A stretch of DNA of 64,000 bases from Streptomyces sp. NBC_01198. GTDB taxonomy: Bacteria > Actinomycetota > Actinomycetes > Streptomycetales > Streptomycetaceae. Position numbers and translations under genes: made by a program. Below, in pieces: positions 43,976 to 62,708 of this stretch. The stretch lies in assembly GCF_036010485.1 (NCBI RefSeq), contig NZ_CP108568.1, positions 5,029,001-5,093,000 of the forward strand, written 5' to 3'. Every line of letters begins with the position of its first letter. Positions within the stretch are counted from its first letter, which is position 1. The notes below the pieces were generated by a model. That model made no database searches, had not been told where the DNA came from, and was given only the letters and a program-made list of their open reading frames with translations.

Positions 43976-44015
43976 CGGTGCCCCCGTCCGCGGTCCGCCG
44001 CGGGCGGGGGCACCG
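43976..44015. terminator. Bidirectional terminator, P450 / PBP
   Basis: An 18-bp stem with one G-U pair: 43976-43993 with 43998-44015, loop TCCG. It begins 17 bp past the P450 stop and separates it from the convergent PBP gene. Confidence 0.8.
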
Positions 44016-44073
44016 TCGCCTGCCGGAAGCCGCCGGCGCGGGTGGGTCGGCGGCTCCTGACGGGGCGTCGCGG

Positions 44074-45765
44074 CTACGAGGCGCGCAGCACGTCCGCGAC
44101 GATCGGGCCGGCGGACTTGTTGCCGTGGTCGCCCTGGACCACCATCGCCGCCGCTGCCACGTCGCCGCTGTAGGCGGTGAACCAGCCGGTGGGCAGGTCG
44201 TCCTTGTTCTCCTCCGCCGAGCCGGTCTTGGCACCGTAGGGGCTGCTCACGCCGCTCAGCAGGCCCGCCGCGGTGCCCGCGGTCGCGGTCAGGTGCATCA
44301 TCGACATCAGATTCTGCCGGACGGTGGGCGGCAGCGGAGTGGCGCTGAGGGTCTCCCGCTTGTCGATGAGGCCGGTGTCCTGGAGGATCGACGGCTGGTG
44401 GAAGCGGCCGTCCCGGACGGTGGCCGCGACCGACGCCATGTTCAGCGTGTTCATCAGGACCTGGCCCTGGCCGATCATCTCCGACGTCATCTCGTCGCCC
44501 GTGCCGCCGGGGATGCTGCCGTCGGTGGTGCCGGTGCCGACGTACCAGGGGCGGGAGTCGCCGACGAGGCCGAAGTACTTCTTGCCGACCTGGGCCAGCG
44601 AATCCTGGTCCAGATACTTCGAGAGCCGGATGAAGCCGGTGTTGCAGGACCTGGAGAAGTCCCAGGCGAGCGTGGCGTTCAGCTTGTCCGGCGTGACGTT
44701 GTGGTATTTCTTGCCGCCGAGCGCCGCGTAGCCGTCGACGCACTGCGACGTCGACTGGGGCGTCAGCCGCGGGGTGTCCGAGGTGACCGGCGCCAGCATC
44801 AGTGCGGTCGCCGTGACGATCTTGAAGGTGGAGCCGGGCGGCTGCAGGGCCAACGCGTAGTTCGTGCCGCCGGGCGGGTTGGCCGCCATCGCCAGGATCG
44901 TGCCGTCGCGGGTGTCCAGCGCGGTCACCCCCGACTGGCCGTACTTCCGCACCGACTTCTCCGCCGCCGCCTGGATCCCGGCGTCCAGCGTGGTCTCGAG
45001 CTTGGCGTTCTGGCCCGGCTTGACCACGTAGAGCGTCTTGACGACGGCGCCGCCGTCGTCGGTCACGTAGGTCTCGATGCCGGGGGTGCCGCCGAGGTTC
45101 GCGTCCGCGTAGCGCTTGCGCAGGTCGGTGAAGACGTCGGTCAGACCCGGAAACTGCTGGACCGTCATGGTCTTGCCGTGCCGGTCGACCAGATCCACCT
45201 CGGGCGTGCTCGCCAGGCCGGTGACCACCGACTGGCCGTCCTTGAGGTCCGGCTCGATGACGTCGGGCGCCCACTTGACCGCCGGGTCGCCCACCGTGTT
45301 GCGGCTGACCTTCAGCGTCGAGTCGTACGTCCAGACCTTCGGCGCGAGCTTCTCGTACGAGATGGTCGCCTTGACCGCGAACGAGACCGTCAGCGCCGAC
45401 GGGTCCGGCGCGGTGGTCGAGTCGGTCGCGCTGTCCGTCGGGATCGGCGTGGCCGTGATCTTGCTGATGCTCGCCTTCTGCCGGTAGTCGGCCAGCGCCG
45501 CGGAGGCCGTCTGGACGGAGTCCGTCAGCTTGGCGGCCTTCTCGTCGTCACCGGCTGACCAGGCGGCCAGGAAGTCGGCCGCCGTCCTGGTGACGTCCTT
45601 GGCGCTGAGCGGAGTGCCCGCACTGGCGGTGGCGGCGGCCGGCTTGCTGCCCTCGCTGTCGTCCAGGCTCGTGTAGATGTTGTAGCCGCCGTACACGGCG
45701 ACGCCCAGCATCGTGATGAAGACCGCACCGATCACACCGGTCTTGACTTTCCTTGGTACGGGCAC
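44074..45765 (-). CDS. Penicillin-binding transpeptidase
   Basis: A 563-residue class B-type PBP: N-terminal anchor helix (10-30), an NTF2-like MecA_N domain (about 52-170), a PBP dimer region, then the transpeptidase with S312-T-F-K, S373-C-N and K513-T-G. It cross-links peptidoglycan outside the membrane. The GTG start at 45765 has GAGGGG upstream. A hairpin lies 20 bp upstream of the start. pmt is on the same strand, and the AICE now separates the two by 15 kb, so shared transcription, if it existed, has been interrupted. Confidence 0.93.
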   Translation of the reverse strand: MPVPRKVKTGVIGAVFITMLGVAVYGGYNIYTSLDDSEGSKPAAATASAGTPLSAKDVTRTAADFLAAWSAGDDEKAAKLTDSVQTASAALADYRQKASISKITATPIPTDSATDSTTAPDPSALTVSFAVKATISYEKLAPKVWTYDSTLKVSRNTVGDPAVKWAPDVIEPDLKDGQSVVTGLASTPEVDLVDRHGKTMTVQQFPGLTDVFTDLRKRYADANLGGTPGIETYVTDDGGAVVKTLYVVKPGQNAKLETTLDAGIQAAAEKSVRKYGQSGVTALDTRDGTILAMAANPPGGTNYALALQPPGSTFKIVTATALMLAPVTSDTPRLTPQSTSQCVDGYAALGGKKYHNVTPDKLNATLAWDFSRSCNTGFIRLSKYLDQDSLAQVGKKYFGLVGDSRPWYVGTGTTDGSIPGGTGDEMTSEMIGQGQVLMNTLNMASVAATVRDGRFHQPSILQDTGLIDKRETLSATPLPPTVRQNLMSMMHLTATAGTAAGLLSGVSSPYGAKTGSAEENKDDLPTGWFTAYSGDVAAAAMVVQGDHGNKSAGPIVADVLRAS

Positions 45766-45784
45766 CGAGACCCCCCTCTTCCCA

Positions 45785-45820
45785 CCCCCTGAACACGTTC
45801 AAATGAGCGTGTCCAGGGGG
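45785..45820. terminator. Hairpin between pmt remnant and PBP
   Basis: CCCCCTGAACACG (45785-45797) pairs with CGTGTCCAGGGGG (45808-45820) with one mismatch. It lies between the old 3' end of pmt and the PBP start, so it probably was the native pmt terminator or a PBP leader attenuator. Confidence 0.6.
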
Positions 45821-45920
45821 CACTTTACGGGACGGGTGTGACAGGACAGGTCTCGAAAGCAACACGGCTTCGTCCCTGCTGTGTTGCACGGGGAACCCTC
45901 GCCCTCGACGCTCGCCTGGT

Positions 45921-46010
45921 CACACCCAGGAGTCGAACCACATCCTGGCCTGCCAGCCGGTGTAGGGGATCGTCATGCCGGTGTAGATCGGGAAGAAGTA
46001 GATGAAATTC
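45921..46010 (-). repeat. attL: duplicated 3' end of pmt
   Basis: This stretch encodes the last residues of Pmt (I-Y-F-F-P-I-Y-T-G-M-T-I-P-Y and onward to D-S-W-V-stop) without the rest of the gene. Bases 45924-45959 are identical to 60988-61023 (36 bp); rightward to 46010 the copies differ at five positions, mostly silent third-codon changes plus one Ser/Thr change. Within the identical block CCAGGA-N11-TCCTGG (45926-45948) forms inverted core arms, typical of tyrosine recombinases. Confidence 0.9.
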
Positions 46011-46020
46011 CGATTCCTTG

Positions 46021-46077
46021 GGCACGTAGACCCCTGGCCAGGGCAGACGCACTGACCAGGGGGGAGCCTACGTGCCG
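46021..46077 (-). terminator. Integrase terminator hairpin
   Basis: Outer arms GGCACGTAG / CTACGTGCC and inner arms CCCCTGG / CCAGGGG form a two-tier stem spanning the integrase stop codon region, just inside attL. Confidence 0.65.
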
Positions 46078-47333
46078 GGGGCCGTCTGTGGGCCGTCCGG
46101 CTGCTCATCAAGAGCCGGGAACACGTTGTCCACGGCCTTCCGTGTGCGGCCCTCGCTGCTCGGCATGAGGTGCGTGTACACGCGGAGTGTGAAGCCGGGG
46201 TCGCTGTGGCCGAGGTAGGTGCTCAGGGCCTTGATGGTCTCCCCGGCGTCCAGCAGGACCGAAGCGTAGAAGTGCCGCAGGGCGTGCATGCCGTGCTCGC
46301 GTGCGGCCGGGTAGCGCTCGCCAGGCGGAGGCTTCGGGATGAGGCCAGCGGTGGCCAGGGCAGGCTTCCACATGAAGTCATCGAAGTAGCTTGCCCGTAC
46401 GGTATTGCCCGTATTGCCAGTGAACACCAGTTCCTTGGTCACGAGAGGCCCGGTCGGCGTGATCCACGGCAACGTGACCTTGACGGTCGGGAACTCCCGC
46501 ATGTGGGCGCGGAGCGCAGCCGCGACAGTAGCCGGCAGAGGAACGTCGCGGAGCCTGCCCCGTTTGGGCGGGGCAAACACGAGCTTGCCGCGGACACGCT
46601 TGACCTGATTGCGCACGGCCAGCCATTCGCCCGCGAAGTCCACTTCGTCGGCCGGCAAGCCGAAGATCTCGCCCTGACGCAAACCGCAGCCGCCGCCGAT
46701 GTCGACCATAGCTCGGAACCGCTTGGGCAACGCGCCTCGGACCGCGAAAACGTGCTCCGTCCGCCACGGCGTAATGCGCGACGGGGCCCCCTGGGGTGCC
46801 CTGACCGACTTGGCCAGGCACGGGTTACGTGGGATCAGGAGGTCATCCACCGCGGCGCCGAACACTGTGGACACCGTTCCGAAGATGATCCGGCGGTACG
46901 ACTCCGTTGGCGCGGTGTTCTTCAACTCCTCAAGCCAGTCGCGAACGTGCGCAGGCTGGAAGGCAACCAACGGGCGCGACCCGATGAGCGGGTTCACGTG
47001 AAGGCGCAGTTGTCGTTCGATCGCGTCTCGCCCACCGATGCTGCCCGAAGCGCTGGCGGCCCAGCGTTCGGCGTACTGCTGGAAGGTGGTGCGGGCGGCT
47101 TTGGGGTCGACGTAGTGGCCGCCTTCCATGTCGGCCTTGGTCTTGGCGAGCCAGGCTTCGGCGAGGCGCTTCTGTCGATCGGGGAAGCTCTTGGACTTCT
47201 CGGTTCCGTCCGGGCCGATGTAACGGGCGCGGTACCGCATGCCTGTTCCGTGGCGGTCGGTCTTGACTGTGATGGACTTGCCATCGGGGGTGGTGACGGT
47301 CTTGTACCAGCGGTCCTGGATATGCCCTGCCAT
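46068..47333 (-). CDS. int: Tyrosine recombinase integrase
   Basis: 421 residues: an AP2-like arm-binding N-terminus, a SAM-like core-binding domain (80-170), and a catalytic domain with the full set R219 (C-G-L-R-Q-G-E), H350-x-x-R353, H376 (L-G-H-S-D) and Y386 (R-V-Y-T-H). It should integrate and, with the excisionase, excise the element at the pmt site. The ATG at 47333 has AGGAG upstream. It lies next to attL. Confidence 0.95.
   Translation of the reverse strand: MAGHIQDRWYKTVTTPDGKSITVKTDRHGTGMRYRARYIGPDGTEKSKSFPDRQKRLAEAWLAKTKADMEGGHYVDPKAARTTFQQYAERWAASASGSIGGRDAIERQLRLHVNPLIGSRPLVAFQPAHVRDWLEELKNTAPTESYRRIIFGTVSTVFGAAVDDLLIPRNPCLAKSVRAPQGAPSRITPWRTEHVFAVRGALPKRFRAMVDIGGGCGLRQGEIFGLPADEVDFAGEWLAVRNQVKRVRGKLVFAPPKRGRLRDVPLPATVAAALRAHMREFPTVKVTLPWITPTGPLVTKELVFTGNTGNTVRASYFDDFMWKPALATAGLIPKPPPGERYPAAREHGMHALRHFYASVLLDAGETIKALSTYLGHSDPGFTLRVYTHLMPSSEGRTRKAVDNVFPALDEQPDGPQTAPGT
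46078..46100 (+). repeat. Subterminal direct repeat, left copy
   Basis: A 23-bp sequence (starting GGGGCCGTCTGTGG) in the 3' end of the integrase gene recurs identically at 60867-60889, about 100-120 bp inside each element end and in the same orientation. It could be an integrase arm site. Confidence 0.6.
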
Positions 47334-47418
47334 GGGTGGCGACTCCTGGAAGGTATGGCGGCGGCCGGTGGCGAGCAGGTGTGCTCGCCACCGGCCGTGG
47401 TGGTCTGAGCGGGGTGAG

Positions 47419-47610
47419 TCAGGCAGCTTGCGTCTGCTGGTCGATCCAGGTGCGTACGGCGTCGGGGTCGTAGCGCAGGTGTTTACCGACGCGGAATCCG
47501 GGCGGTCCGGTGCGCTTCTTGCGCCAGGCGTAGACGGTTTCGACGCTCGGCAGACGCAATACGTCGGCGAGTTCTTCGGGCGTGAGGAAGTGATCGGGGA
47601 GCGCGGACAC
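47419..47610 (-). CDS. xis: Excisionase-like helix-turn-helix protein
   Basis: A 63-residue MerR/excisionase-type winged helix: T-P-E-E-L-A-D-V-L-R-L-P-S-V-E-T-V-Y-A-W-R-K then F-R-V-G-K-H-L-R-Y, as in AICE Xis proteins. It bends att DNA to favour excision. The GTG start has GGAGGA six bases upstream. It sits 85 bp before int on the same strand. Confidence 0.9.
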   Translation of the reverse strand: MSALPDHFLTPEELADVLRLPSVETVYAWRKKRTGPPGFRVGKHLRYDPDAVRTWIDQQTQAA

Positions 47611-47654
47611 GCGGGTCCTCCGAGATTTGGGGCCGGGGCCCTGTCCTGCCAGGT

Positions 47655-47872
47655 CCGCTACTTCCGCTACCTCCGCTACCGCCCTGGTCAGGGCCTTGAT
47701 CAGGTAGCGGATCGGGGTAGCGGTAGCGGATGGGTCCGCTACCGGCGACGGGTGGCCGGTAGCGGATGTGGGGTGCTGGTAGCGGACAGGTAGCGGATAG
47801 CGGGGTGCGTATCCGCTACCGGGTCCGCGCAGCTCAGGGTGCGTTTTGAAGATCAGGTAGCGGAGGTAGCGG
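47655..47872. repeat. Iteron-like array of GTAGCGG, candidate origin
   Basis: Thirteen exact copies of GTAGCGG or its complement in 218 bp. The complement orientation is at 47655, 47664, 47673, 47736 and 47813; the direct orientation at 47704, 47717, 47723, 47759, 47779, 47790, 47857 and 47866. Many extend to GGTAGCGGA. The last two lie in the 3' end of the DUF3631 gene; the rest fill the gap before xis. Position beside the replication genes suggests a plasmid-type origin or initiator binding array. Confidence 0.75.
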
Positions 47873-49141
47873 ACTTTCCGGGGGTGGGGGGCAGTACCGC
47901 TGCCACGCGTCGTGCAGGTCGGTGGCGTAGTAGCCCTTCATGACGCTGCTGACTCCGGGAGTGATGCTGCTCTTGATGTTGCGGGCGGTGATCGGGGTGT
48001 TGTCCGCGGTCTGGTAGTCGCGCAGCATCTTCGACAGCCGCCGGGCGTCCAGCGGTTTGCCGTACAGGTCCGCCCACGGCGACTCGTCAAGGCTGCACAG
48101 CCTGTCGAGGATCGCGACGGTGGGAAGCCGGTCGATGCCGTTGAATACGTGGTCGCGCAGGTCGGTCAGCAGCCGGATACCGAGTGAGCCTTTGTCATCG
48201 ACCTTCGCGGCCGTGACGAGTTCCACGCACGCGGCCCGTGCCCGGTCCGGCCAGGTTCCCCCCGCAGCGTCGGCGACCGCGAGAAGCGGTTCCCACACGT
48301 CGGCCGGCCGGTCGGTGACCCCGTCCGGCATGGCGGGGAAGACCCCTTCGATGCTGCCGCGGATCTGCTCTGCCCATGCGGCGAGCCGCTTGCCCAGGGC
48401 GTTGCCCTGGCGTTCGTGGATGCGCTGCCGGAAGGGTTCCACCTTCTCGTTGGGGGCGCGGCGCCGCATGCGGATGATGATCGAGCGGGTCAGGATCGTG
48501 TCCGGGAGTGAGCCGAGTCCGGCGACAGCCACCACGGCGTAGGAGGGGAAGGCCTGCACGGTCTGGTTCCCGCCGTCGCCCACACACCGGTACGTCACAC
48601 CGGTCCGGCGGTGGCCTGCGTTGAGGAATCCGCGCAGTTCCTCGTTGTCCCCCGCCTTCGGGCCGAAGACGGTATCGACCTCGTCAAAGAGGATGGTGGG
48701 CCGCCCGTCCGGACCGGACACCGCCCGGAACAGGGCCGCGGCGGACGCGTTCACCGCGACCATCGGCCGCGGCACCAGCGTCTCTACGATCTCCAGCGCC
48801 CTCGACTTCCCCGATCCCGGTTCGGGAGACAGGAACGCCAGGCGCGGTGTGGAGTCGAACGCGTCCAGCAGGTGCGCGTGCGCGTCCCACAACGCCACCG
48901 CGACGTAGCAGGCATCCGAGGGGAAGATGTTGAAGCGCCGGTGGAACGCCTCGACTTCCGCCAGCAGCTCGGCGCCGTCGATGACCTGCGGGCCAGGGCC
49001 AACAGCAGACAGGGCGCCCTGGCGGGCGGCGACCTTCGGCGCCCCACTGCCGGTGGGAGTGCCGGCCGGTTCGGCGGAGCTGGTCTGGTCGGGGGTGGTG
49101 GTGAGGCTTTTCAGCCCGGGGCGGGGTTCGGGGCTGGTCAT
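47834..49141 (-). CDS. DUF3631 ATPase, replication helicase-like
   Basis: 435 residues: a disordered first 60, a P-loop ATPase with Walker A S-P-E-P-G-S-G-K-S and Walker B T-I-L-F-D-E-V-D, and a C-terminal DUF3631 domain (W-A-D-L-Y-G-K-P-L-D-A-R-R-L-S). In AICEs it pairs with a Prim-Pol and probably unwinds DNA at initiation. The ATG at 49141 overlaps the Prim-Pol stop; the 3' end carries two copies of the GTAGCGG repeat. Confidence 0.88.
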   Translation of the reverse strand: MTSPEPRPGLKSLTTTPDQTSSAEPAGTPTGSGAPKVAARQGALSAVGPGPQVIDGAELLAEVEAFHRRFNIFPSDACYVAVALWDAHAHLLDAFDSTPRLAFLSPEPGSGKSRALEIVETLVPRPMVAVNASAAALFRAVSGPDGRPTILFDEVDTVFGPKAGDNEELRGFLNAGHRRTGVTYRCVGDGGNQTVQAFPSYAVVAVAGLGSLPDTILTRSIIIRMRRRAPNEKVEPFRQRIHERQGNALGKRLAAWAEQIRGSIEGVFPAMPDGVTDRPADVWEPLLAVADAAGGTWPDRARAACVELVTAAKVDDKGSLGIRLLTDLRDHVFNGIDRLPTVAILDRLCSLDESPWADLYGKPLDARRLSKMLRDYQTADNTPITARNIKSSITPGVSSVMKGYYATDLHDAWQRYCPPPPESPLPPLPDLQNAP

Positions 49142-50043
49142 GCGCTCTCCCGGGTGCGGGCGGTGCGGATCGACCAGTCCAGTGCGCTGCGGATCGTGGT
49201 GCGGCACTCGGCTGCCGGCAGTCCGGCCGACTCGCCCGCGGCCTGAAAAGCCATCTCTACGGTGGTGCGGTCGAGGTCTTCCCAGGCCACGAACCGGCCG
49301 ACCGCACGGACCGCGCGCAGCAACTCGGCGTTCCGGCCGCCTTCGCCGGTTCCGGCGACCGCGGCTGTCTCGCGTTCGAGCACGGCAGCGGCGAGCCGGT
49401 TCCCGTTACGGGTGGGCATGAGCCGGATTGCGGCCGTAGACGACTTCTGAGGGGCCGTCAGGGCGCTGTGTAGCCAGCCGGGTAGGTCTGCAACGGGTGC
49501 GTCGCTCTCAACGGCGTACAGGCCCGTTCGGGTGATGCTGCCGGGGGCGACGACTTGTCCGCCCCATGCGCGGGTGTCGACCTTGGGTGCGAGGGTGCCC
49601 GCGGTGTTGTGCAGCCGGGCACCAGGCGGGGTGGTGAAGTACAGGTGCTGTCCGCCGCTGGGGGTCCGGACCCGGTAGGTATCGGGGACGGCCTGTCCGG
49701 CGCGCTCGCAGAGCGCCAGGAAGGATGTCGCGCCGTCAGGCGTGCCCTTCTTGTCCTTCGGCTTGAGCGTGTCGAGATCGACCACGACAAGCCCGGCGGG
49801 GCCGGTGGCGGTGCCGACGTTGAACGGTCCGGCCGACCAGCACCGCTCGATGCGGTCGGGGTCGGTGGTGGCGCGCTGCTCGAAGGTGCGGTGCCCGGCG
49901 GTGCAGTCCCCGGTTCGGGGGCAGGTGCGCGCGCCATGTAGGGCGGGGGGCTTGTCGCCGGGGCGAAGCGGGATGACGGGCCAGCCGCGTGCGGCGACCG
50001 CGAGCGCCGCGGACAGCAGCGCGGATCGGGTGGCTTGGGTCAT
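49138..50043 (-). CDS. Bifunctional DNA primase/polymerase (Prim-Pol)
   Basis: 301 residues of the archaeo-eukaryotic primase fold: A-A-R-G-W-P-V-I-P-L at the start, a CxxC-type zinc segment (C-P-R-T-G-D-C), the metal site V-V-D-L-D near residue 90, and T-P-S-G-G-Q-H-L-Y-F near 130. Prim-Pol is one of the AICE replication initiators known besides RepSA and RepAM. ATG 50043 follows AGGAG. Confidence 0.92.
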   Translation of the reverse strand: MTQATRSALLSAALAVAARGWPVIPLRPGDKPPALHGARTCPRTGDCTAGHRTFEQRATTDPDRIERCWSAGPFNVGTATGPAGLVVVDLDTLKPKDKKGTPDGATSFLALCERAGQAVPDTYRVRTPSGGQHLYFTTPPGARLHNTAGTLAPKVDTRAWGGQVVAPGSITRTGLYAVESDAPVADLPGWLHSALTAPQKSSTAAIRLMPTRNGNRLAAAVLERETAAVAGTGEGGRNAELLRAVRAVGRFVAWEDLDRTTVEMAFQAAGESAGLPAAECRTTIRSALDWSIRTARTRESA

Positions 50044-50133
50044 GCTGGGGGTACTCCTGTTCCTTGTTGTGGAGCGGGTGAGCCGGGACGGCCGCGGTTC
50101 TTTGGCGAGATGCGGCGGCCGTCCCGGGCGAAG

Positions 50134-50739
50134 TCAGGTGCGGGCAGCGGTGGCGGCGGCACGAACCACGGCGAGCGCCTGTTCGCGGCCGATGTGGGGC
50201 TGGTCGTTCCATTGCGGGAACGGCAGGTTGATTCCGCGGGAGCGCAACAGCGCGTTGATGTGGTGGCCTGCGGTGGTGGCGGTGTCGTGGGTGCCGTAGC
50301 CGAGCCGGAAAACGGTGTATTGGGCACCGAGGATGCAGCGGCGGCCGGTGGCGGTGCGGATGCGGGTCCCGGTCTGTGCCCATCCCCATTGCTCCAGCAC
50401 CGCGGCGGTGAGGTCGAGATGGTCGGCGACCGGGATACGCAGGCGCGCGACTCCCTCGCCGCGGCGAGCGGGGTGCAGGAACAGCAGCCGGTCGGGCAGG
50501 ATCCGCCACAACCCGCCGGGCAGGATCACGCCGGCCGCAGTCGTCGGGGTGGTCGGGGTGAGGTCGGCGAGCGCTTCGGCCACAAGATCTGCGGTGGGCG
50601 CGGTGACGAGCCGGTGCGCGGTGCGGGCCGGGTCGGTGAGCCACGCTTCGATCTGGTCGACCAGGTCAGCACCGAGCGTGTCAACGTCGGCGAGCCGCGG
50701 CAGCGCGGCGGCGGTGGGCGGGGTGGTGGTGTGGGTCAT
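50134..50739 (-). CDS. Conserved AICE protein, DUF6197-like
   Basis: 201 residues. The centre reads G-W-A-Q-T-G-T-R-I-R-T-A-T-G-R-R-C-I-L-G-A, a pattern I associate with DUF6197, followed by a helical end with F-P-Q-W-N-D-Q-P. No enzyme motif is seen. It belongs to the minus-strand transfer/replication operon. The family label is from memory; the function is unknown. Confidence 0.7.
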   Translation of the reverse strand: MTHTTTPPTAAALPRLADVDTLGADLVDQIEAWLTDPARTAHRLVTAPTADLVAEALADLTPTTPTTAAGVILPGGLWRILPDRLLFLHPARRGEGVARLRIPVADHLDLTAAVLEQWGWAQTGTRIRTATGRRCILGAQYTVFRLGYGTHDTATTAGHHINALLRSRGINLPFPQWNDQPHIGREQALAVVRAAATAART

Positions 50740-50765
50740 GGCGGGGGGTTCTCCGTTCCGTACGG

Positions 50766-50960
50766 TCAGGTGCGCATCTGTGCGAGGGAGTGGGCGAGGC
50801 TGGCCATGACCTGATCGATGGGTCCGGCGGCGCCGGTGGCGGCGGCGTAGAAGCCGAAGAGGAATACGACCAGGGCGGCGCCGAACGAGGTGGACTTGGC
50901 GCGGATCGCGAAGAGGGACGCGACGCCGAAGAGCAGCACGGCGGAGATGGACAGGATCAC
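50766..50960 (-). CDS. Small membrane protein, spread-type
   Basis: A 64-residue protein with two membrane helices (about 2-20 and 27-45) separated by A-K-S-T-S. A GTG at 50960 with GGAGAT upstream is the natural start. Its position between transfer and replication genes suggests a Spd-type role in intramycelial spread. Confidence 0.65.
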   Translation of the reverse strand: MILSISAVLLFGVASLFAIRAKSTSFGAALVVFLFGFYAAATGAAGPIDQVMASLAHSLAQMRT

Positions 50961-50982
50961 GGGCGGGATCTCCGATCGGTGG

Positions 50983-51234
50983 TCAGCGGGTGCCGCGGTC
51001 GTAGGTGTGGTGCCAGAGGTTGTAGAGGTGGCGTCCGCGGCGTATGCGCTTGCCGGTGGTCTTGCAGTGGCGGCAGGGCTTGCCTCGCTTGACGGTGCCG
51101 CGGCGGGTGACCTTGGTCGCGTGGCCCATGCCGCCGCAGCGGCGGCAGTCCGCGAACGGCTGGGCCGCACACAGACTCGCGTAACACAGTGTGACGATGA
51201 GCAGGCAGGCGCTAGCAAGGAGGAGGAGAGTCAC
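50983..51234 (-). CDS. Membrane-anchored small zinc-finger-like protein
   Basis: 83 residues: an N-terminal helix (2-24) and two DnaJ-like cysteine pairs, C-R-R-C-G-G-M-G and C-R-H-C-K-T-T-G, likely binding one zinc. The GTG at 51234 has GGAAGG seven bases upstream. Such small zinc proteins recur in AICE operons; the function is unknown. Confidence 0.7.
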   Translation of the reverse strand: MTLLLLASACLLIVTLCYASLCAAQPFADCRRCGGMGHATKVTRRGTVKRGKPCRHCKTTGKRIRRGRHLYNLWHHTYDRGTR

Positions 51235-51315
51235 GGGATGCCTTCCAGGCGGGGTTTCGGGTGTTTGCGCAGGTCGGCTGCTAGGTGCGAGATCGCAGCT
51301 CAGGCGCTGGGCGGG

Positions 51316-51365
51316 GTGCTAGTAGAGGTGCTAGGTCTAGCACTTGGCGGTGCTAGACCTAGCAC
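51316..51365. promoter_or_regulatory. CTAG-rich palindrome cluster after traB
   Basis: Five copies of GTGCTAG or its complement in 50 bp. The two longest units, GTGCTAGGTCTAGCAC (51328-51343) and its exact reverse complement (51350-51365), face each other over 6 nt. CTAG is very rare in Streptomyces DNA. It starts 9 bp after the translocase stop. Possible roles are a transcription stop, a repressor operator for the following genes, or the cis transfer locus recognised by TraB. Confidence 0.6.
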
Positions 51366-51374
51366 TCTTCCGAG

Positions 51375-53630
51375 TCAGCCCCCGGACTGCTTCTTGTCAC
51401 GCTGTGTGATTGCAGTCGTGAGGTCGGCACGGACGATACCGCGGCGGGTGGTGCCCTTGCCGGCGCCGGTGGTTCCCCACACGTCCTGCGCTGTGATGCC
51501 GTGCGCCTTCAGGTTCGTCGCGACCGTTGCGGCCTTCCAGCCGCCGTAGACCTCGGGCCGCAGCTCGGCGAGGCGGGAAGCAATCTTCTCGTTCCACACC
51601 TTGTCTTCGTCGGCCGGTATGACCCGCAGGACATCGGTGAGCAGGTCGAAGCCGGTCTCGGTGGCGGTGGGTTCCTGGCCGATGGCGTGGCCGGTGACGT
51701 TCCCGTACGCCTCGCGCATCTCCCTGGCCCGCTTGACGACCAGTTCGGCACCGACCGCGTCCACGAACGCGGACGCCACGATGCGGGGGTCGTCTCCCTC
51801 GCCGGCCATCCAGCAGATACCGCGGTCGGTCCGGCTGAACATGGTGGCGCGGTAGCCGGCCTTGTACATGGACGTGCCCAGCACCATGTCGTTCGCAGGC
51901 TGGCCCATGACCTTCAGGCAGAACCGCAGCACCGCGTTGGCGCTGATACCGGTGGGCAGGGACTTCGCATCCGGGCGTTGCGTCCCGAACAGGGCCACGA
52001 TGCCCAGCGCGGGACCGCGTTTGGCCAGGTCGGTGCAGATCTCCTCGATCTCCGCCCCGTACTTGTCGTGCTCGAACGGGACCTGGCACTCATCGAAGCC
52101 CACGACGATCGGGTGCAGTCCGAGCGTCTTGTCGTTGGCCAGCTCCGGGGTGACCTTGGATTCCGGGCAGCGTGATCGCGGCAGGGACTTGATGACCTTC
52201 GCCCGGCGGCGCAGTTCCTCGCGCAGTTCCCGCAAAGCATTCAGCACGTACAGGAGGTCATCGTCTTCGTCCCCGGCGCGGTAGCGGTGGCAGATCGGTT
52301 CCAGGGCGCCGAAGTCACCGGTGCCCTTGAAGTCGAATCCGTAGATCTCCGAACGCGGGTCCAATGCGGCGATCAGCAGGAACAGCCGCATCAGGAACGT
52401 CTTGCCCATCCGCGGGACGCTGCCGACGATGACGGACGCGAACATCAGCGTCACCGATACGTCGCTCATGCGCTGGTCGTTGCCGAACACGACCGGCTTG
52501 AACAGGTCCACTGTGCCGGACTTCAGCAGCGGCCACGCGGGCTTCTTCGTCTCGTTCATGGGCTTATCGCCCACCCAGAGAATCAGCCGGCCGTCGTGCT
52601 CGGTCGGGTCAGCGGACGGCCACACGCAGCCGACCTTCCTGCGCAGGCCCGACGCGAGCGCCGGCCGGGACTCCATGATGTCCTGCGGGGTGACCCCGTA
52701 GGGCAGATCGAGGTCGGCGCGGTAGCCGGGTCCGTCACGGGTGATCTCCGAGGTGAACCGCATCCCGTTCATGTCTCCGCCCTTCTTGAGCGCGGCGGAG
52801 ATCTTGGCGTTCCCGACGCTGTCCAGACCGCGCAGCACGATCGACCCGGTCAGCTTCTCCAGCTCGGTCCGCAGCACCGCAGGCCCGATGACCGGATGGT
52901 CCTTCGGCGCCCCCCAGAACCCCGCGACCAGCACCGCAGCCGAGGCGAACGCCCCCAGCCACAGCGGCGCCATGATGTACAGGGCCAGGGCGAACACCGC
53001 ACCGAACACGATGGACACGGCCGTGACCAGCACTCGCAGCCGCACCCGGTCATCACGCTGCCTCGACAGCTTCAGGTACTCCGCGGTGTTCTCCCTGGCC
53101 ACCTCATACGCGCGCAGCGGCGCCCCTTCGGTGTCCCACACCCAACGGCGGGTATCGCCCACCATCCGCGCGGCACCGCGCGGGGCGTAGGAGGTCAGCC
53201 GCAGGGCGTACCAGGGACTGCGGATCGAGTGGTACGCGGCAGCGTAGAAGGCGTTGCTCGCCGCGCGCTGCGTGGTGGACACGAACCCCGGCTTGGACGT
53301 AAGCCACGTCGGCAGGATCGGCTTGCGCTTGTCCCACCGCACCCCCGGCGAGGGAAGGTTCTTCGGGTCGACAGGACGACCGACCCGCGACCCGCCCGGA
53401 CCCGACGCAGCGTCACCCGTGACGATGATCGTGTCGCCCGACGCGTCGGACGACGCGTCGGGGTTGCTGGTACCCGACGTGTCGGGTACCAGGTCGGACT
53501 CGGTGGGGTTGGTGTCGGCCGACTCGCGGGCGGCGCGCGCCTTGCCCAGGTCGACCACGTCACCGCCGAAGTTGGCGGCGATATCGGCTTCGAGCCGGTG
53601 GAACAGTTCGTTCTCTTCCTCGTGATTCAC
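51375..53630 (-). CDS. tra: FtsK/SpoIIIE-type conjugal DNA translocase (TraB/TraSA)
   Basis: 751 residues. A disordered acidic N-terminus with Asp-Ala-Ser repeats, two membrane helices (about 199-240), an FtsK ATPase domain with Walker A G-S-V-P-R-M-G-K-T (403-411) and Walker B V-V-G-F-D-E (509-514), and a C-terminal winged-helix-like segment (W-K-A-A-T-V-A-T-N-L-K-A-H-G). Streptomyces conjugation needs only this hexameric pump, which moves double-stranded DNA. The GTG start at 53630 has AAGGA upstream. Confidence 0.94.
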   Translation of the reverse strand: MNHEEENELFHRLEADIAANFGGDVVDLGKARAARESADTNPTESDLVPDTSGTSNPDASSDASGDTIIVTGDAASGPGGSRVGRPVDPKNLPSPGVRWDKRKPILPTWLTSKPGFVSTTQRAASNAFYAAAYHSIRSPWYALRLTSYAPRGAARMVGDTRRWVWDTEGAPLRAYEVARENTAEYLKLSRQRDDRVRLRVLVTAVSIVFGAVFALALYIMAPLWLGAFASAAVLVAGFWGAPKDHPVIGPAVLRTELEKLTGSIVLRGLDSVGNAKISAALKKGGDMNGMRFTSEITRDGPGYRADLDLPYGVTPQDIMESRPALASGLRRKVGCVWPSADPTEHDGRLILWVGDKPMNETKKPAWPLLKSGTVDLFKPVVFGNDQRMSDVSVTLMFASVIVGSVPRMGKTFLMRLFLLIAALDPRSEIYGFDFKGTGDFGALEPICHRYRAGDEDDDLLYVLNALRELREELRRRAKVIKSLPRSRCPESKVTPELANDKTLGLHPIVVGFDECQVPFEHDKYGAEIEEICTDLAKRGPALGIVALFGTQRPDAKSLPTGISANAVLRFCLKVMGQPANDMVLGTSMYKAGYRATMFSRTDRGICWMAGEGDDPRIVASAFVDAVGAELVVKRAREMREAYGNVTGHAIGQEPTATETGFDLLTDVLRVIPADEDKVWNEKIASRLAELRPEVYGGWKAATVATNLKAHGITAQDVWGTTGAGKGTTRRGIVRADLTTAITQRDKKQSGG

Positions 53631-53774
53631 TGAATGTCCTTCCCGGACACATGGGGTTGGAGGGGTCCGGATGGCGCTTTGGACGGCCTACCGTCCGGAC
53701 CCCGCTATGTGGTGCGTGCCCCGGGCCGCATTCGATGCGGCGCCCTCACGGCAGATCGCCGGGGCTGGGCTGAG

Positions 53775-54164
53775 CTAGGCGGCGCGCTGTTCGTCGGGGT
53801 AGGCGCAGGGCACGCAACTGCCGAGCGACCCGGGGATGACGTATCCGGCATCCGTGCGGCAGACCGGGCAGGTGCGGCGGGCGAGCATCGCCGCAGCGTG
53901 CGCCGCCCACTTCGCGGGTGTCATCGGCCGGACCGGCTTTGCCAAGTCGATGCGGTAGAGGTAGGCGACTGCGTAGCCGGTCTTGCGACGCCGGGAACTG
54001 CGCATGATCTGAGCAGCGACCGGCTGACCACCGGGACGCAGCCCCTTCGCCCGCAACTGCCGGCGGGTCGCCATGCCGTCCGGGGCGAGCCGCCACGGGA
54101 ACGTAGGCGTTCCCCAGGTGGCGCCGGTCGGGTCGTAGCACCGGCCGAACGTCGGGGACATCAC
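53775..54164 (-). CDS. RRQRL motif-containing zinc-binding protein
   Basis: 129 residues with A-T-R-R-Q-L-R-A-K-G-L-R-P-G-G near residue 32 and two cysteine pairs at the C-terminus (C-P-V-C and C-V-P-C), plus R-C-Y-D-P near the start. It matches the small RRQRL family found in Streptomyces mobile elements; the function is unknown. The GTG at 54164 overlaps the GGDEF gene stop; ATG follows as the second codon. Confidence 0.8.
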   Translation of the reverse strand: MMSPTFGRCYDPTGATWGTPTFPWRLAPDGMATRRQLRAKGLRPGGQPVAAQIMRSSRRRKTGYAVAYLYRIDLAKPVRPMTPAKWAAHAAAMLARRTCPVCRTDAGYVIPGSLGSCVPCAYPDEQRAA

Positions 54165-54796
54165 GCCACCGCCGATCCGGCGGTACCGGGCCGTCCGGAC
54201 CGGCGCCCCGCAAGCGTCGCGAACAGGCTGCCGATCCCTGCCCGGCGGACACCGGCGCGGGCGCGCTTCGCCGCGTACATCGCCTCATCGGCCCGGCGCA
54301 GCAACTCCGGCAGTCCCTCGCCGGGGAAGTCCGCGGTCCGGACCCAGCCGAGCGAGACCGTGGTGTGCACGGCAGGGTCAAGACCGGCCGCAGGCCGGGC
54401 GAGCACACCACCCAGCACGGCAAGCATGTCGCCGACCGTGCCGTGCTGGTCGATGAGCACCGCAGCGAACTCGTCACCACCCAGCCGCCCGGCAACCCCG
54501 TGCGGGCCGGTGTAGTGGGCGAGCCGGTCCGCGGTCGCCTTCAACAGCGCGTCCCCCGCGGCGTGCCCGTGGGTGTCGTTGACCTGCTTGAAGCGGTCCA
54601 CATCGGCGAGCACCACCACCGCGCGCGGGTCGCGCAGCAGAACGGTGGCGCGGCGGGTGAAGCCGTCCCGCGTCCACAGCCCGGTCAGCGGGTCACGGCG
54701 AGCCGTGTTCAACCGGTGCCGGAACCACAGCAGGTGGGCCGACCAGCCCGCGGCCAGCGGTATGCCGGCCACCGCGGCAGCTAACAGGGTGCTCAT
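54161..54796 (-). CDS. GGDEF protein, predicted diguanylate cyclase
   Basis: 211 residues: one N-terminal membrane helix (about 2-24) and a GGDEF domain with D-P-L-T-G-L near 35, metal-binding D65 (V-D-R-F-K-Q-V-N-D) and an intact G-G-D-E-F at 106-110. The inhibitory RxxD site expected just before GGDEF is absent. It should make cyclic di-GMP, which in Streptomyces controls development through BldD. ATGA overlaps with both neighbours place it in the transfer operon. The ATG at 54796 is chosen. Confidence 0.88.
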   Translation of the reverse strand: MSTLLAAAVAGIPLAAGWSAHLLWFRHRLNTARRDPLTGLWTRDGFTRRATVLLRDPRAVVVLADVDRFKQVNDTHGHAAGDALLKATADRLAHYTGPHGVAGRLGGDEFAAVLIDQHGTVGDMLAVLGGVLARPAAGLDPAVHTTVSLGWVRTADFPGEGLPELLRRADEAMYAAKRARAGVRRAGIGSLFATLAGRRSGRPGTAGSAVA

Positions 54797-55752
54797 GCCG
54801 CCACCGCCCGCGGCCCGTTGTGGCCGGTCGTACGGTCGGCGCGCAGGGTGTCGCGGACGGCCCGGGAGTGGGCGGCGCCGCAACTCACGGCCTGCCGGAT
54901 ACGGTCCGCCGTCAGATGCTCGAACGGCCACCCGGCGGTGACCGCACGGGCCTCGGTCAGCACGTCATCCAGCGAACGCCGACCGGACTTCGCCGCAGGC
55001 TTCGCGGACCGCTTGCGCGCGGACGCCTTCGGCCCGACCGGCGGCGCGGCAGGGTCCACGCCACCGGGCACCGGGACCGGCTCAGGGTCGGCGGCGGGGG
55101 CGAGTTCCCCGAGCTTGAGCAGCACGCGGGTACGGCGGTCGGTCTTGGCCCGCCACCGGCGGCCGTGTTCCGACCGCAGGTCCGCGCGGGCGAGCTGCCG
55201 TCCCCGCTCCCGGGCCAGCGCGTCGCTGTAGGAGGTGATCTCCCACAGCGTCATCCGTCGCCACAGCGTGAACGTGGACAGTGGGGCGAGCAGCCAGCGG
55301 GAACGGCGGATCTTCTCCATACGACGGCCGGTCACTGCACCGATCCGTGCCGCGTAGACGTGCGCTGCGACCTCGGAGAGCACCACCCACAGCAGCGGCA
55401 TCGTGCCGTGCGCGACCTTCGCCGACAGCGACGTGCCCGCGGCGATGTTCAGCCAGCACGTCACCCCCGTGAGCAGCCAGGGCACGAACCGCGCCCAGGC
55501 AAGTGGCATGTCCATGCGGATCAACAGCAGATTGATCACGGTGAACACCGGGATGGCCAGGTCGATGGCCAGCGGCAGCATGCCCGGCGTCGTGAAGCCC
55601 CAGCGGGCAGCGGCCGCAGAGACCGTGTCGAACGACATGGCGAGCCCCACGCCGCCCACACCCACACCCAGCACCGTTGCCGCGACCAGCAGCACCCGGT
55701 CAACTCGCGACAGCGGCGGAAGGTCGGTCCGCCCGGTCTCCGGGGCGCTCAT
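54793..55752 (-). CDS. DUF2637 spread-type membrane protein
   Basis: 319 residues: four membrane helices (about 20-40, 60-78, 88-108, 118-138), the DUF2637 core with L-P-L-A-I-D-L-A-I-P, then a basic linker and a C-terminal helical domain that resembles a winged helix. DUF2637 proteins occur in Streptomyces conjugative plasmids near Spd functions. The ATG at 55752 overlaps the upstream gene. Confidence 0.85.
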   Translation of the reverse strand: MSAPETGRTDLPPLSRVDRVLLVAATVLGVGVGGVGLAMSFDTVSAAAARWGFTTPGMLPLAIDLAIPVFTVINLLLIRMDMPLAWARFVPWLLTGVTCWLNIAAGTSLSAKVAHGTMPLLWVVLSEVAAHVYAARIGAVTGRRMEKIRRSRWLLAPLSTFTLWRRMTLWEITSYSDALARERGRQLARADLRSEHGRRWRAKTDRRTRVLLKLGELAPAADPEPVPVPGGVDPAAPPVGPKASARKRSAKPAAKSGRRSLDDVLTEARAVTAGWPFEHLTADRIRQAVSCGAAHSRAVRDTLRADRTTGHNGPRAVAA

Positions 55753-56045
55753 GCCGCAGCCCCCTTCCGGGAACCGCGGCGCCGCCGACCGGTCGGGAGG
55801 GGCAGCACGGAGACGTTGAACAGGTGCGGGGCGTAAGCCTCGATCACCTCGACAGCGACCCGGCTCACCCGGTCGGGCATGGTGGGGTCGTCGGCGAGGA
55901 TGTCGGCCGCCGCGGCGAGCCGGGCGGCGCGCTCTTCCTCGGTCTCGCCATCGACACCCAGCCACAACTCCAGCGGGGTGCCCAGCGCGAGTTCCACGAA
56001 ATCGGTGGCCGTGACAGCCACATGGCCTGCGACGATACTTCTCAT
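55749..56045 (-). CDS. Small conserved AICE protein
   Basis: 98 residues: a structured core (V-E-L-A-L-G-T-P-L-E-L-W-L-G-V-D-G-E-T-E-E-E around 20-40, then helical) and a basic tail. No family recognised. AGGAG lies upstream of the ATG at 56045, and its stop overlaps the DUF2637 start. Confidence 0.65.
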   Translation of the reverse strand: MRSIVAGHVAVTATDFVELALGTPLELWLGVDGETEEERAARLAAAADILADDPTMPDRVSRVAVEVIEAYAPHLFNVSVLPLPTGRRRRGSRKGAAA

Positions 56046-56192
56046 GGGTCGTGCACTCCTTAGACGGTGGGAACGGCCCAACCAGCACCCCCGGAGTAGT
56101 CGCTCCGGGGGTGCGCGCCGTTCATGGTGGGAGTGCCCCGAGCCGGATCCGATCCGGCAGCATCACGCCGGGTCCGGGGCTGGTCGTACGGG

Positions 56193-56549
56193 TCACGCAG
56201 GCGCACTGTCGTCCGTAGCAGCGAAGACGACCGCACGGATCGCACCCTTCACCCGGTCGTTCTGACGCCAGGTGAAGACCGCGTGCAGGTGTGTGGTGCC
56301 GTCGGCATCGGTGCGTTCCTGCCAGCGGTCGGCGTTGAGGTAGTCGGCCCACGCATCGAACGCAGCACGCTGTTCCACCACGCCCACACCCAAGCCGTGC
56401 GCCTCGCCGATCAGAGTCCCGGTCGTGGCGATGGACCAATGCAACGCCGGCAGACCCTCGCTGTAGCCATGGGTCAGCATCGCCACCAAGGCAACGACCG
56501 CCTGACGCTGCCAGCCGTGCCGATCGCGGTCGGAAATCTTGTACGTCAC
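56193..56549 (-). CDS. Hypothetical AICE protein
   Basis: 118 residues, mixed alpha/beta and without membrane helices, Cys clusters or known motifs; the middle reads L-H-W-S-I-A-T-T-G-T-L-I-G-E-A. The GTG at 56549 with GGGAG upstream overlaps the stop of the preceding small gene. It is part of the minus-strand operon. Confidence 0.65.
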   Translation of the reverse strand: MTYKISDRDRHGWQRQAVVALVAMLTHGYSEGLPALHWSIATTGTLIGEAHGLGVGVVEQRAAFDAWADYLNADRWQERTDADGTTHLHAVFTWRQNDRVKGAIRAVVFAATDDSAPA

Positions 56550-56719
56550 CGGCGACCACTCCCGTTGATCGTCTGCTTGTGCAGGTTGGCCTTGGTTACC
56601 GCTTCGCCGCGGGAGGGGCCGGAGCGGCCGTAGGCGCCGCAGGAACAGATAAAGCCGTAGTTGCCAAAGCCGTAGTCCTGGATGGTGGTCTCGTGGGTTT
56701 CGCGCTTGAACAGGCCCAT
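56546..56719 (-). CDS. Small Cys-containing AICE protein
   Basis: 57 residues starting M-G-L-F-K-R-E-T-H-E-T, with F-I-C-S-C-G-A-Y-G in the middle and a polar helical end. It resembles a single zinc knuckle (C-S-C). GGAGGAA precedes the ATG at 56719. No function is known. Confidence 0.65.
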   Translation of the reverse strand: MGLFKRETHETTIQDYGFGNYGFICSCGAYGRSGPSRGEAVTKANLHKQTINGSGRR

Positions 56720-56830
56720 CGGGTGGGTTCCTCCGCTGCCGTGTGGTGCGGGCCGGACTGTCCGGCTCTCCGTCACCGCCCACCCACCGGACGCACCGGC
56801 AGGTGAGCGGATCAGACAACCGTCAGCCGG

Positions 56831-57307
56831 TCACAGCAGAGTGATCAGCAGCGCGGCGACCAGCAACCACAGATGGTGGAAGGACTGGTCAAGCGCGTAC
56901 GCACCGGTCCCCAAATGCGCGGCGGGCTTGCCCTCACCGGTAACCGGATGGGCAGGGTGCGCACCGGTGCCGAGCGAGTAGAACTCGGCCTTCCCGGTCC
57001 GTGTGGCCAGCCACGCCAACGTGGTGCGACGGTCCGCCCACCAATGCGTCACCGCGTCGACTCCCAGCCCGGCAAACAGGCCCCACACCGACAGATGCAG
57101 ACCCAGCAGCACGGCCGCGGGCAGCAGAACGACCAGCTTGGTCGCGGTGAGGGTCGCGACGTGCCGGGCACCGGCCAACCGACCGACCCAGCCGGGGCGA
57201 CCCTTGGCCGCGGACTGAGCGGACGTCTGAACCCAGTGATCCCCCACACTGTGGGCGACATACAGGGCCGCGAACACCGCAGCGAATGTACCGGCAGCGG
57301 CACTCAC
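56831..57307 (-). CDS. DUF3307-like membrane protein
   Basis: 158 residues with four hydrophobic segments and two metal-like motifs H-S-V-G-D-H-W-V-Q-T (near 19) and V-D-A-V-T-H-W-W-A-D-R (near 83), a pattern like DUF3307 proteins. It may act in the envelope during transfer or entry exclusion; this is inference. The GTG at 57307 overlaps the stop of the 30-residue gene upstream. Confidence 0.7.
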   Translation of the reverse strand: MSAAAGTFAAVFAALYVAHSVGDHWVQTSAQSAAKGRPGWVGRLAGARHVATLTATKLVVLLPAAVLLGLHLSVWGLFAGLGVDAVTHWWADRRTTLAWLATRTGKAEFYSLGTGAHPAHPVTGEGKPAAHLGTGAYALDQSFHHLWLLVAALLITLL

Positions 57308-57396
57308 TTGCCGCTCCCGTTCTCGCTGCGCTTGTTAGCCTCAGCGACCTTCCGCGACAGTTCCGCGGACTCTTCCTCTGTCAGACTGATGAACAC
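57304..57396 (-). CDS. 30-residue peptide gene
   Basis: Encodes a 30-residue, helical, charged peptide (F-I-S-L-T-E-E-E-S-A-E-L). GGGAGG lies four bases before the GTG at 57396, and the stop overlaps the next start (GTGA), supporting real translation and coupling. It could also be a leader peptide. It is the first gene of the transfer operon. Confidence 0.5.
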   Translation of the reverse strand: MFISLTEEESAELSRKVAEANKRSENGSGK

Positions 57397-57838
57397 AGGT
57401 CCTCCCAACAGGTCCTGTACGCGGTCCCGGTGTTTGCCCACCGGGGCCGCACTCGTTTGGACCACTCGCCACGAGCGGCCACGGCCCGTGACCTCTGCCT
57501 TGCAAAGGCAGAGGTCAGGGACTGTGGTCACTGGTGTGAGGACTGCACTGGCCGGCCGTTGCTGCGGCGTGCCAGTCCCGAGCCCTCTTCGGGTGCACCA
57601 TCTCTCTACCTGGCGCAAGAGCAGGGCAGCTCACATCAGGTGGCACCCCATGGAAGGGCGTTCCCCAGAGCCGATGTGCGGTACGTACCGAGCCGACGCT
57701 CGGGACCGCTGCCGACGAGCCTCACCCGGTCGTCACGGGGGCGGGAGTCTCACCCGTCGAAGTTCACTGTTCAGTTCTCAAGATCCAGGCACTTCCTTCG
57801 GACCCCTGTCACCGGGTCCTCCGGGCGCTTCACGAGCT
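57397..57838 (-). promoter_or_regulatory. Long leader of the transfer operon
   Basis: No gene is evident in these 440 bp. On the minus strand TTGAGAACTGAACAGTG (within 57762-57783) closely matches the antitermination-like segment of Streptomyces 16S-23S rRNA spacers as I recall it (TTGAGAACTGCACAGTG). Farther down, TGACCTCTGCCTT and its complement (57489-57517) form a perfect 13-bp stem with a 3-nt loop. Together they suggest an RNA leader with a processive-antitermination signal and a hairpin. Confidence 0.5.
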
Positions 57839-57898
57839 AGCGTGCACTAGTCCACACTGTCTTGGCAACCCATCCAGCAGTGTGGACTAGCGCACGCT
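57839..57898. promoter_or_regulatory. Paired GntR operators
   Basis: Two 21-bp arms (57839-57859 and 57878-57898) are reverse complements with one mismatch. Each contains a smaller dyad: GTGCACTAGTCCAC and GTGGACTAGCGCAC. They lie between gntR and the divergent transfer operon, as expected for repression of both by the GntR protein. Confidence 0.7.
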
Positions 57899-57916
57899 GC
57901 CAGATACGCTGGTTGC

Positions 57917-58282: not shown

Positions 58283-58320
58283 ACAACAACCACAATGGGT
58301 TGCCAGGAACGGCACGCACA

Positions 58321-58409
58321 GTGACACCGACAGGTCAGGAATGGACAGGGCGGACACCCCCGGTGTCACTGCCGTGTCACCTTGACTGTCACCAGGTCCG
58401 CCGTAGTCA
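58321..58409 (+). promoter_or_regulatory. Promoter and TGTCAC repeats before the XRE gene
   Basis: GGTGTCAC-like sites occur at 58321-58328 (reverse), 58362-58369, 58373-58380 and 58385-58392, the last three about 11-12 bp apart on one face of the helix. TTGACT (58382-58387) and TAGTCA (58404-58409) with a 16-bp spacer form a candidate promoter overlapping the last site. Confidence 0.5.
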
Positions 58410-60983: not shown

Positions 60984-62708
60984 CTAGACCCAGGAGTCGA
61001 ACCACATCCTGGCCTGCCAGCCGCTGTAAGGGATGGTCATGCCGGTGTAGATGGGGAAGAAGTAGATGAAGTTCCAGATGATCAGCAGCACCAGGGTGCC
61101 CGCACCGACCGCGCCCCACATCCGGCGGCCCTCGCCGGAACCCGGCGGGCCGAGGAAGGCGCCCACCATCATCGCGACCGCCAGGCAGAGGTAGGGCACG
61201 AAGGCGACGGCGTAGAAGTAGAAGATCGTACGGTCCTGGTAGTGGAACCACGGCAGCAGGCCCGCGCCCACCGCGCACAGGATGGTGCCCGCCCGCCAGT
61301 CGCGGCGGAGCAGCCAGCGGTAGAGCAGGTAGAGCAGGGCGAAGCACGCCGACCACCACAGCAGCGGCGTGCCCAGCGCCAGGATCTCCTTCGAGCAGCC
61401 GCCGGTGCTGTGGCAGCCGTCCTGGCCGAGCTTCGGCGACTCGAAGTAGTACGACACCGGACGGCCGAGGATCAGCCAGCTCCACGGATTGGACTGGTAC
61501 GGGTGGGGCGTGTGCAGCGTCACATTGAACTGGTAGACCTCGTACTCGTAATGCCACAGGCTGCGCAGCGGGGCCGGGATCCAGGACCAGGTGCCGCCGC
61601 GGTTGTCCGCCCAGTGCCGGCCGTAGCCCTTGTCGGACAGGAACCAGCCCGTCCAGGTCGCCAGGTAGGTGAGCAGCGCGACCGGGATCATGGTCAGCAC
61701 CGACCAGCCGAAGTCCTTGCGCAGCACGGCCAGGACGGGCCGGCGGGCGCCCGCCAGGCGGCGCGCGCCGATGTCCCAGGCCAGGGTCAGGATCACGAAG
61801 AAGGCCAGGAAGTACAGGCCGTTCCACTTGCTCGCCGCGGCGAGGCCGAGGAAGACCGCCGCGGCGATCCGCCACGGGCGCCACCCCATGCCGACCCGGT
61901 CGCCGACCCGCCGGTCGGGACCCGCCCAGCCGGACTCGTCCACCGGCAGCGCCCGGGCCAGCCGGGCTCTGGACCAGTCGCGGTCCACCAGCAGGCAGCC
62001 GAAGGCCGCGAGTGCAAAGAACATGATCACCAGGTCGAGCAGCGCGATCCGGCTCATCACGAACTCCAGGCCGTCCACCGCCATCAGCAGCCCGGCCAGG
62101 CAGCCCAGCGCGGTGGAACGGAACAGCCGCCGCCCGATCCGGCACAGCATCAGCACCGCCAGGGTGCCGAGCACGGCCATCATGAAGCGCCAGCCGAAGG
62201 GGTTCATGCCGAACATCCACTCGCCGACCGCGATCACCCACTTGCCGGCCGGCGGGTGCACCACGTAGCCGGGTGCGTCGGACAGCGGGATCGTCTGCGG
62301 ATGGCCCAGCAGGTCCGGGTTGGTGATCTTGGCGTCCGGCCAGGTGCCCTCGTAGCCGAACTGCAGCAGCGACCAGGCGTCCTTGGCGTAGTACGTCTCG
62401 TCGAAGACGACCTCGCGGGGCGTGCCCAGGTGCCAGAAGCGCAGCGCGCCCGCGAAGACCGCCACCAGAACCGGGCCGAGCCAGCCGGAGATCCTGGCCA
62501 GCAGGTAGGAGACCTCCTGGCTCGCGCCCAGCGAGCGCCACATCTTCGTACCCGGCTCGGGGAACGGCGGCACCAGGCGCTCGCGGGTGTCGGTCCGCGG
62601 CCTCTCCGCGTAGCCGAACCTGCGCAGCCGTTGCGCCCAGGGGCTCGGATGCGGCTGTTCCAGAACAGCCTCTGCGGCCCGGTCCTGCGTCGCGGTCTCA
62701 CTCGTCAC
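60984..62708 (-). CDS. pmt: Protein O-mannosyltransferase (GT39)
   Basis: A 574-residue GT-C membrane enzyme that moves mannose from polyprenyl-phosphate-mannose to exported proteins. After a cytoplasmic N-terminus (about 75 residues) come about 11 helices; the first outer loop has the catalytic D-E-T-Y-Y-A-K-D-A-W, and P-P-A-G-K-W follows. In S. coelicolor Pmt is needed for phiC31 infection. The GTG at 62708 is chosen. The last residues are rebuilt from AICE-borne sequence; the displaced original 3' end lies at 45921-46010. Confidence 0.93.
   Translation of the reverse strand: MTSETATQDRAAEAVLEQPHPSPWAQRLRRFGYAERPRTDTRERLVPPFPEPGTKMWRSLGASQEVSYLLARISGWLGPVLVAVFAGALRFWHLGTPREVVFDETYYAKDAWSLLQFGYEGTWPDAKITNPDLLGHPQTIPLSDAPGYVVHPPAGKWVIAVGEWMFGMNPFGWRFMMAVLGTLAVLMLCRIGRRLFRSTALGCLAGLLMAVDGLEFVMSRIALLDLVIMFFALAAFGCLLVDRDWSRARLARALPVDESGWAGPDRRVGDRVGMGWRPWRIAAAVFLGLAAASKWNGLYFLAFFVILTLAWDIGARRLAGARRPVLAVLRKDFGWSVLTMIPVALLTYLATWTGWFLSDKGYGRHWADNRGGTWSWIPAPLRSLWHYEYEVYQFNVTLHTPHPYQSNPWSWLILGRPVSYYFESPKLGQDGCHSTGGCSKEILALGTPLLWWSACFALLYLLYRWLLRRDWRAGTILCAVGAGLLPWFHYQDRTIFYFYAVAFVPYLCLAVAMMVGAFLGPPGSGEGRRMWGAVGAGTLVLLIIWNFIYFFPIYTGMTIPYSGWQARMWFDSWV
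60988..61023 (-). repeat. attR: identical 36-bp block in pmt
   Basis: Identical to 45924-45959, coding for the C-terminal residues of Pmt. It contains the CCAGGA-N11-TCCTGG inverted core. Beyond the block to the right, the native gene differs from the attL copy by scattered substitutions. Confidence 0.9.

Follow-up and report, generated by a model that had tools for sequence, protein, structure and literature searches.

Iteron origins, and Streptomyces plasmids that pair a rep gene with an iteron, are already known. The minimal replicon of pWTY27 consists of repA, the Prim-Pol gene repB and an adjacent 300-bp iteron; RepA binds this iteron, and its deletion abolishes replication (PMC3583192). 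RepA of pFP11 is reported as an iteron binder as well, in work cited in PMC3583192. For RepAM (DUF3631, pMEA300-type) AICEs, a published survey names the replication genes and the word 'iteron' is absent from it (PMC3218068). No description of iterons in these elements was found in the open-access literature, and a prior one is possible, for example on the pMEA300 minimal replicon in subscription papers.

The DNA studied here (the window, a stretch of 64,000 nucleotides) carries an integrated element whose genes are like those of the surveyed RepAM AICEs (Int, RepAM, Prim-Pol and FtsK-type Tra; PMC3218068). Imperfect att repeats delimit ~15.06 kb, and a long ORF has its 3′ end at this insertion. 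Between them the RepAM/Prim-Pol AICE gene set is complete (Int, Xis, DUF3631, Prim-Pol and an FtsK/SpoIIIE-type Tra), with Tra matching FtsK_SpoIIIE at an E value of 1e-3, below Pfam's cut-off. The RepAM ATG overlaps the Prim-Pol stop codon (ATGA). Pfam assigns DUF3631 no function; work on AICEs labels it a replication initiator. The features are listed in the table.

Table. Features of the element, in window coordinates
Feature	Position	Strand	Basis or remark
att repeat, integrase side	45924..46006	+	exact blocks of 36, 17 and 17 bp, in register with 60988-61070
Tyrosine integrase	46068..47333	-	
Xis-like HTH_17 protein	47419..47610	-	
Iteron array, proposed origin of replication	47655..47872		13 x GTAGCGG
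Outer arm, 3 tandem 9-bp iterons	47655..47679	-	repeat positions
Conserved spacer, ~32 bp copy to copy, minus-strand CTGACC 12 bp before outer iterons	47680..47703		relatives' arrays
DUF3631 (RepAM), putative initiator, 435 aa, AAA+ core and C-terminal predicted winged helix	47834..49141	-	domain match and predicted structure
Opposite outer arm, 2 tandem 9-bp iterons, within DUF3631 gene 3′ end	47855..47874	+	95% complementary to 47653-47672
Prim-Pol (PF09250), 301 aa, upstream of and overlapping RepAM	49138..50043	-	domain match
Candidate clt, 5 GTGCTAG in both orientations, tra 3′ end	51316..51365		repeats distinct from iteron
TraB/FtsK-like DNA translocase	51375..53630	-	FtsK_SpoIIIE at E 1e-3
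att repeat, far side, at 3′ end of ORF 60984-63152(-)	60988..61070	+	match to 45924-46006

Counting and shuffling bore out the sequence-only reading, which had claimed 13 exact 7-mers in both orientations within 218 bp. GTAGCGG occurs 8 times on the plus and 5 times on the minus strand, while no 7-mer exceeded 4 copies per 218-bp span, on both strands, when the 4 kb around the array were shuffled 300 times with dinucleotides preserved; shuffles of the array itself gave a mean of 0.2 and a maximum of 3 copies of GTAGCGG. A G precedes 12 of the 13 copies, and the extension that had been claimed for many of them, to GGTAGCGGA, is present in 11. Three copies at 9-bp spacing lie at one end and two, oppositely oriented, at the other, with one inverted copy 31–44 bp inward of each outer arm. 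The array had also been placed between the replication genes and xis. These are its neighbours, but only part of it is intergenic. With the end of the DUF3631 gene at 47834, the last two copies, at 47857 and 47866, fall within the 3′ end of that gene.

Among the known systems, the locus can be likened to pWTY27, in which the Prim-Pol gene repB is co-transcribed with the initiator gene repA, non-coding 7–8 bp repeats on both strands adjoin these genes, and a separate clt lies by tra. The pWTY27 repeat is a different one (GTGGGAAC/TTCCCAC), and its RepA was described as a hypothetical protein (PMC3583192). pFP11 has a Prim-Pol gene, a hypothetical protein gene that we take as repA and, 3′ of it, 9 copies of GGGACGC in both orientations; its RepA candidate has no DUF3631 match and no detectable homology to RepAM, which sets the window element apart from pFP11-type replicons, whose Rep is homologous to pFP11 RepA. 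Classical Rep/DnaA iteron origins (e.g. those of Rep_3 plasmids) share with the window the general pattern of an iteron origin, multiple short repeats adjoining an initiator gene. They differ in that the window array shows no DnaA boxes or AT-rich element, runs in both orientations and is paired with an AAA+ DUF3631 initiator. Among the 85 arrays collected, none contains a DnaA box at one mismatch, and no clear AT-rich unwinding element is apparent; the array is therefore not a classical DnaA-dependent iteron origin.

Conservation was assessed in 80 related genome loci gathered by DUF3631 similarity. Immediately beyond the RepAM 3′ end, 77 of them carry a GTAGCGG array of at least 6 copies; of the remaining three, L097 and L123 carry GTGGCGG at the same place and L052 is cut by a contig end. 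The alignment shows a fixed layout in which two or three tandem copies, 9 bp apart, form each of the oppositely oriented ends, with 32-bp spacers and a variable centre; arrays comprise 6–15 copies with a median span of 206 bp. The sequence CTGACC is present in 79 of 85 arrays, in 69 instances exactly 12 bp before an iteron, and is possibly an initiation or host-factor site. The window genome itself (7.9 Mb, one contig), whose relatives in this comparison are Streptomycetaceae, has 4 DUF3631 genes, 3 of them with a GTAGCGG array; the two further elements lie at C1:3475374-3475592 (L009) and C1:4258708-4258922 (L011). Two circular plasmid records, NZ_CP108827.1 (L136, 13.5 kb) and NZ_CP108973.1 (L137, 14.3 kb), show the order int-xis-array-DUF3631-PrimPol-tra and are probably unintegrated (excised) AICEs, though annotated as plasmids.

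Beyond this lineage, more divergent DUF3631 genes from across the class carry arrays of other repeats at or just past the gene end (GTGGCGG, GTTGCGG, GGTTCCG, GGGACGG, GGTACGG and others). The repeat motif tracks the Rep tree, with 17 changes against 31 in shuffles, and GTGGCGG proteins are scattered on that tree. Several RepAM lineages have no array of at least 4 of the tested 7-mers at the gene end. In one DUF3631 lineage (L192, L205, L206, L209), GGGACCG/GGTCCCC-type arrays lie 5′ of rep, not 3′. The check that had been proposed, a comparison with related Prim-Pol AICEs, thus showed that relatives keep the repeat in this position and that many RepAM lineages outside this one have a motif of their own there. 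An iteron-type replication origin is the best reading of the array. What did not hold is the remark that such an array is unusual for AICEs: within this RepAM lineage arrays are the rule, and L249, an AICE whose pFP11-like Rep shares 34% identity with the RepA candidate of pFP11, carries one 3′ of rep too.

Since the 80 loci had been gathered by Rep, the presence of Rep at them is no proof of linkage, and two Rep-independent reverse tests were run. A tandem GTAGCGG pattern was searched in 298 genomes without reference to Rep; all 8 two-armed arrays fetched (L264-L271) adjoin this Rep, and 3 single-orientation tandem matches have no Rep alongside. The second search, by the L136 Tra protein, returned 23 further loci. 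This Rep is present at three of them (L245, L253, L275), each with a GTAGCGG or GTGGCGG array. Those with another Rep have no GTAGCGG array, and most have a different one (for example TGACGCA, CGTCACC, GTCAGGG or GGACGCT) several kb from tra; at a few of the loci without this Rep no such array was evident. The AICEs at L248-L263 and L276 have other Reps, together with arrays that run in both orientations, among them TGACGCA and GTGACGC.

Mantel correlations over 55 full loci agree with a linkage to RepAM and not to Tra or Int: array identity correlates with Rep at 0.35, with Prim-Pol at 0.20, with Tra at 0.10 (p 0.08) and with Int at 0.04 (p = 0.25). Arrays were trimmed of RepAM coding sequence for these values; with 60 bp flanks that include coding sequence, the Rep effect is 0.40. 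The position of the array next to xis would suit arm-type sites for Xis or the integrase, used in excision. We regard this as extremely unlikely, given that array-bearing elements have several unrelated Int and Xis families, that array identity does not follow Int, and that the att repeat lies beyond int, more than 1.6 kb from the array.

We consider it equally improbable that the array is clt, the conjugation site recognised by TraB. The clt sites described so far consist of clustered short repeats, and the TraA-protected repeat in the pWTY27 clt, defined by footprinting, is TGACACC (PMC3583192); in a second element of the window genome, moreover, the tra-side CTAGCGG repeats differ from the iteron by a single base. 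Against this, a clt motif should follow the Tra family and adjoin tra, and the array does neither: it occurs with three unrelated Tra families, is absent where the same Tra has other Reps, and its identity does not correlate with Tra after correction for Rep (r = 0.00). Instead, the 3′ end of tra carries short repeats particular to each Tra family, namely GTGCTAG in the window (CTAGCGG at related Tra loci), CAGGGAG or GGGAGGC in the L136 family and TGACACC in the L137 family, and these are the candidate clt sites. The TGACACC repeats, at L137 4750-4950 and also in L046, L065 and L083, are identical to the footprinted pWTY27 repeat. In this way the repeats of the origin and those of transfer can be told apart within one element, which provides candidate clt sites for AICEs.

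Covariation between protein and repeat was used to ask which protein reads the array. Residue 390 of RepAM, in the predicted C-terminal winged helix, predicts the base before GTAGCGG (position −1) in 83 of 84 elements, L096 being the one against the rule. Among individual copies, 599 out of 601 in K390 elements have a purine there, and 274 out of 316 in R390 elements a pyrimidine. For 27 distinct proteins unused in finding the rule, 25 fit it as G/T and all 27 as purine/pyrimidine, a wording adopted after the two G/T misfits (both C) were seen. Overlap at the DNA level does not explain this signal, as codon 390 lies ~100 bp from the array. The elements are related, which limits the statistics: only 5 independent pairs fall on well-supported branches, all pointing the same way (p ~0.06). 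Residues 422–434 also covary with the array and were discounted, because the DNA encoding them overlaps or adjoins it. Covariation is also seen for residue 399 in the first set, yet three elements not used there (L145, L211 and L228), with K390 and G399, have G at −1, making residue 390 the better candidate. The RepAM positions that best part GTAGCGG from GTGGCGG elements (388, 400, 380, 401 and 346) are all in the predicted C-terminal domain, a separation drawn from only 6 distinct GTGGCGG proteins and of a kind that ordinary clades can yield.

Prim-Pol and the DUF3631 protein had both been proposed at the outset as possible binders, and the covariation favours the latter. Prim-Pol lies beside the array nearly always. 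No position in it, however, separates GTAGCGG from GTGGCGG elements (4 GTGGCGG proteins only), and the position most informative about base −1 reaches 0.36 in Prim-Pol vs 0.92 in DUF3631; that Prim-Pol binds the iterons in place of DUF3631 is thus very unlikely. The strong residue-to-base covariation points to DUF3631 as the probable iteron binder and would assign origin recognition to this domain. In an AlphaFold2 model of RepAM (mean pLDDT 87), an AAA+ core is accompanied by a C-terminal domain (residues ~268–424) whose helices and strands come in a winged-helix-like order; the winged helix is called from this predicted secondary structure. Foldseek matched the whole model to MCM, the ASFV PrimPol helicase and D5 with low overall TM-scores, and gave no significant match for the C-terminal domain alone. 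It seems moderately likely that DUF3631 proteins form a family of DnaA-independent AAA+ initiator-helicases with a code in the wing, in which residue 390 specifies base −1 and residues around 388 and 400 the third base of GTAGCGG, and that changes in these residues created many origin specificities among actinobacterial elements. If so, such changes would render elements in one cell compatible or incompatible by sequence alone. The residue-to-base rule can be tested by one substitution, K390R, which is expected to move the preference from GGTAGCGG to TGTAGCGG. L009 and the window element share the −1 base and may for that reason be incompatible when excised; L011 has T at −1.

Taken with its conservation, the linkage of the array to RepAM makes it very probable that the array is the oriV of the RepAM/Prim-Pol AICE, a DnaA-independent origin of the iteron type that is bound by the MCM/D5-like AAA+ protein RepAM and primed by Prim-Pol. 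We infer that, after excision, RepAM would use its C-terminal winged helix for physical binding to the GTAGCGG iterons and would assemble on both arms, which face in opposite directions. The MCM/D5-like AAA+ motor of RepAM would then melt or unwind the DNA, Prim-Pol, translated from the overlapping ATGA junction, would lay the primer, and replication would start at the array. RepAM-type AICEs would thereby gain a defined candidate origin, and small compatible Streptomyces vectors could result.

Iterons often serve as control sites besides being origins. The RepAM-bound array might accordingly be a control site (for copy-number handcuffing, incompatibility, or as a xis-int operator), with replication starting elsewhere, and xis and int do lie just downstream on the same strand. 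We think this unlikely: the equivalent pWTY27 array is needed for replication (PMC3583192), some RepAM lineages have the array 5′ of rep, and window positions 44001-63999 contain no other cluster of at least 4 identical 8-mers within 200 bp. With the array as origin, an added regulatory role is possible, because the integrase follows it at every locus inspected in the lineage.

Pattern matches in IMG/VR numbered 12 in total, and arrays were present in 2 of 4 inspected. Two IMG/VR contigs listed as viral (L129 and L135) combine the array with RepAM and Prim-Pol and resemble AICEs rather than viruses. A distant DUF3631 homologue (34.5%) is found in Pseudomonas phage Phipami28 (L139, 31254-32804).
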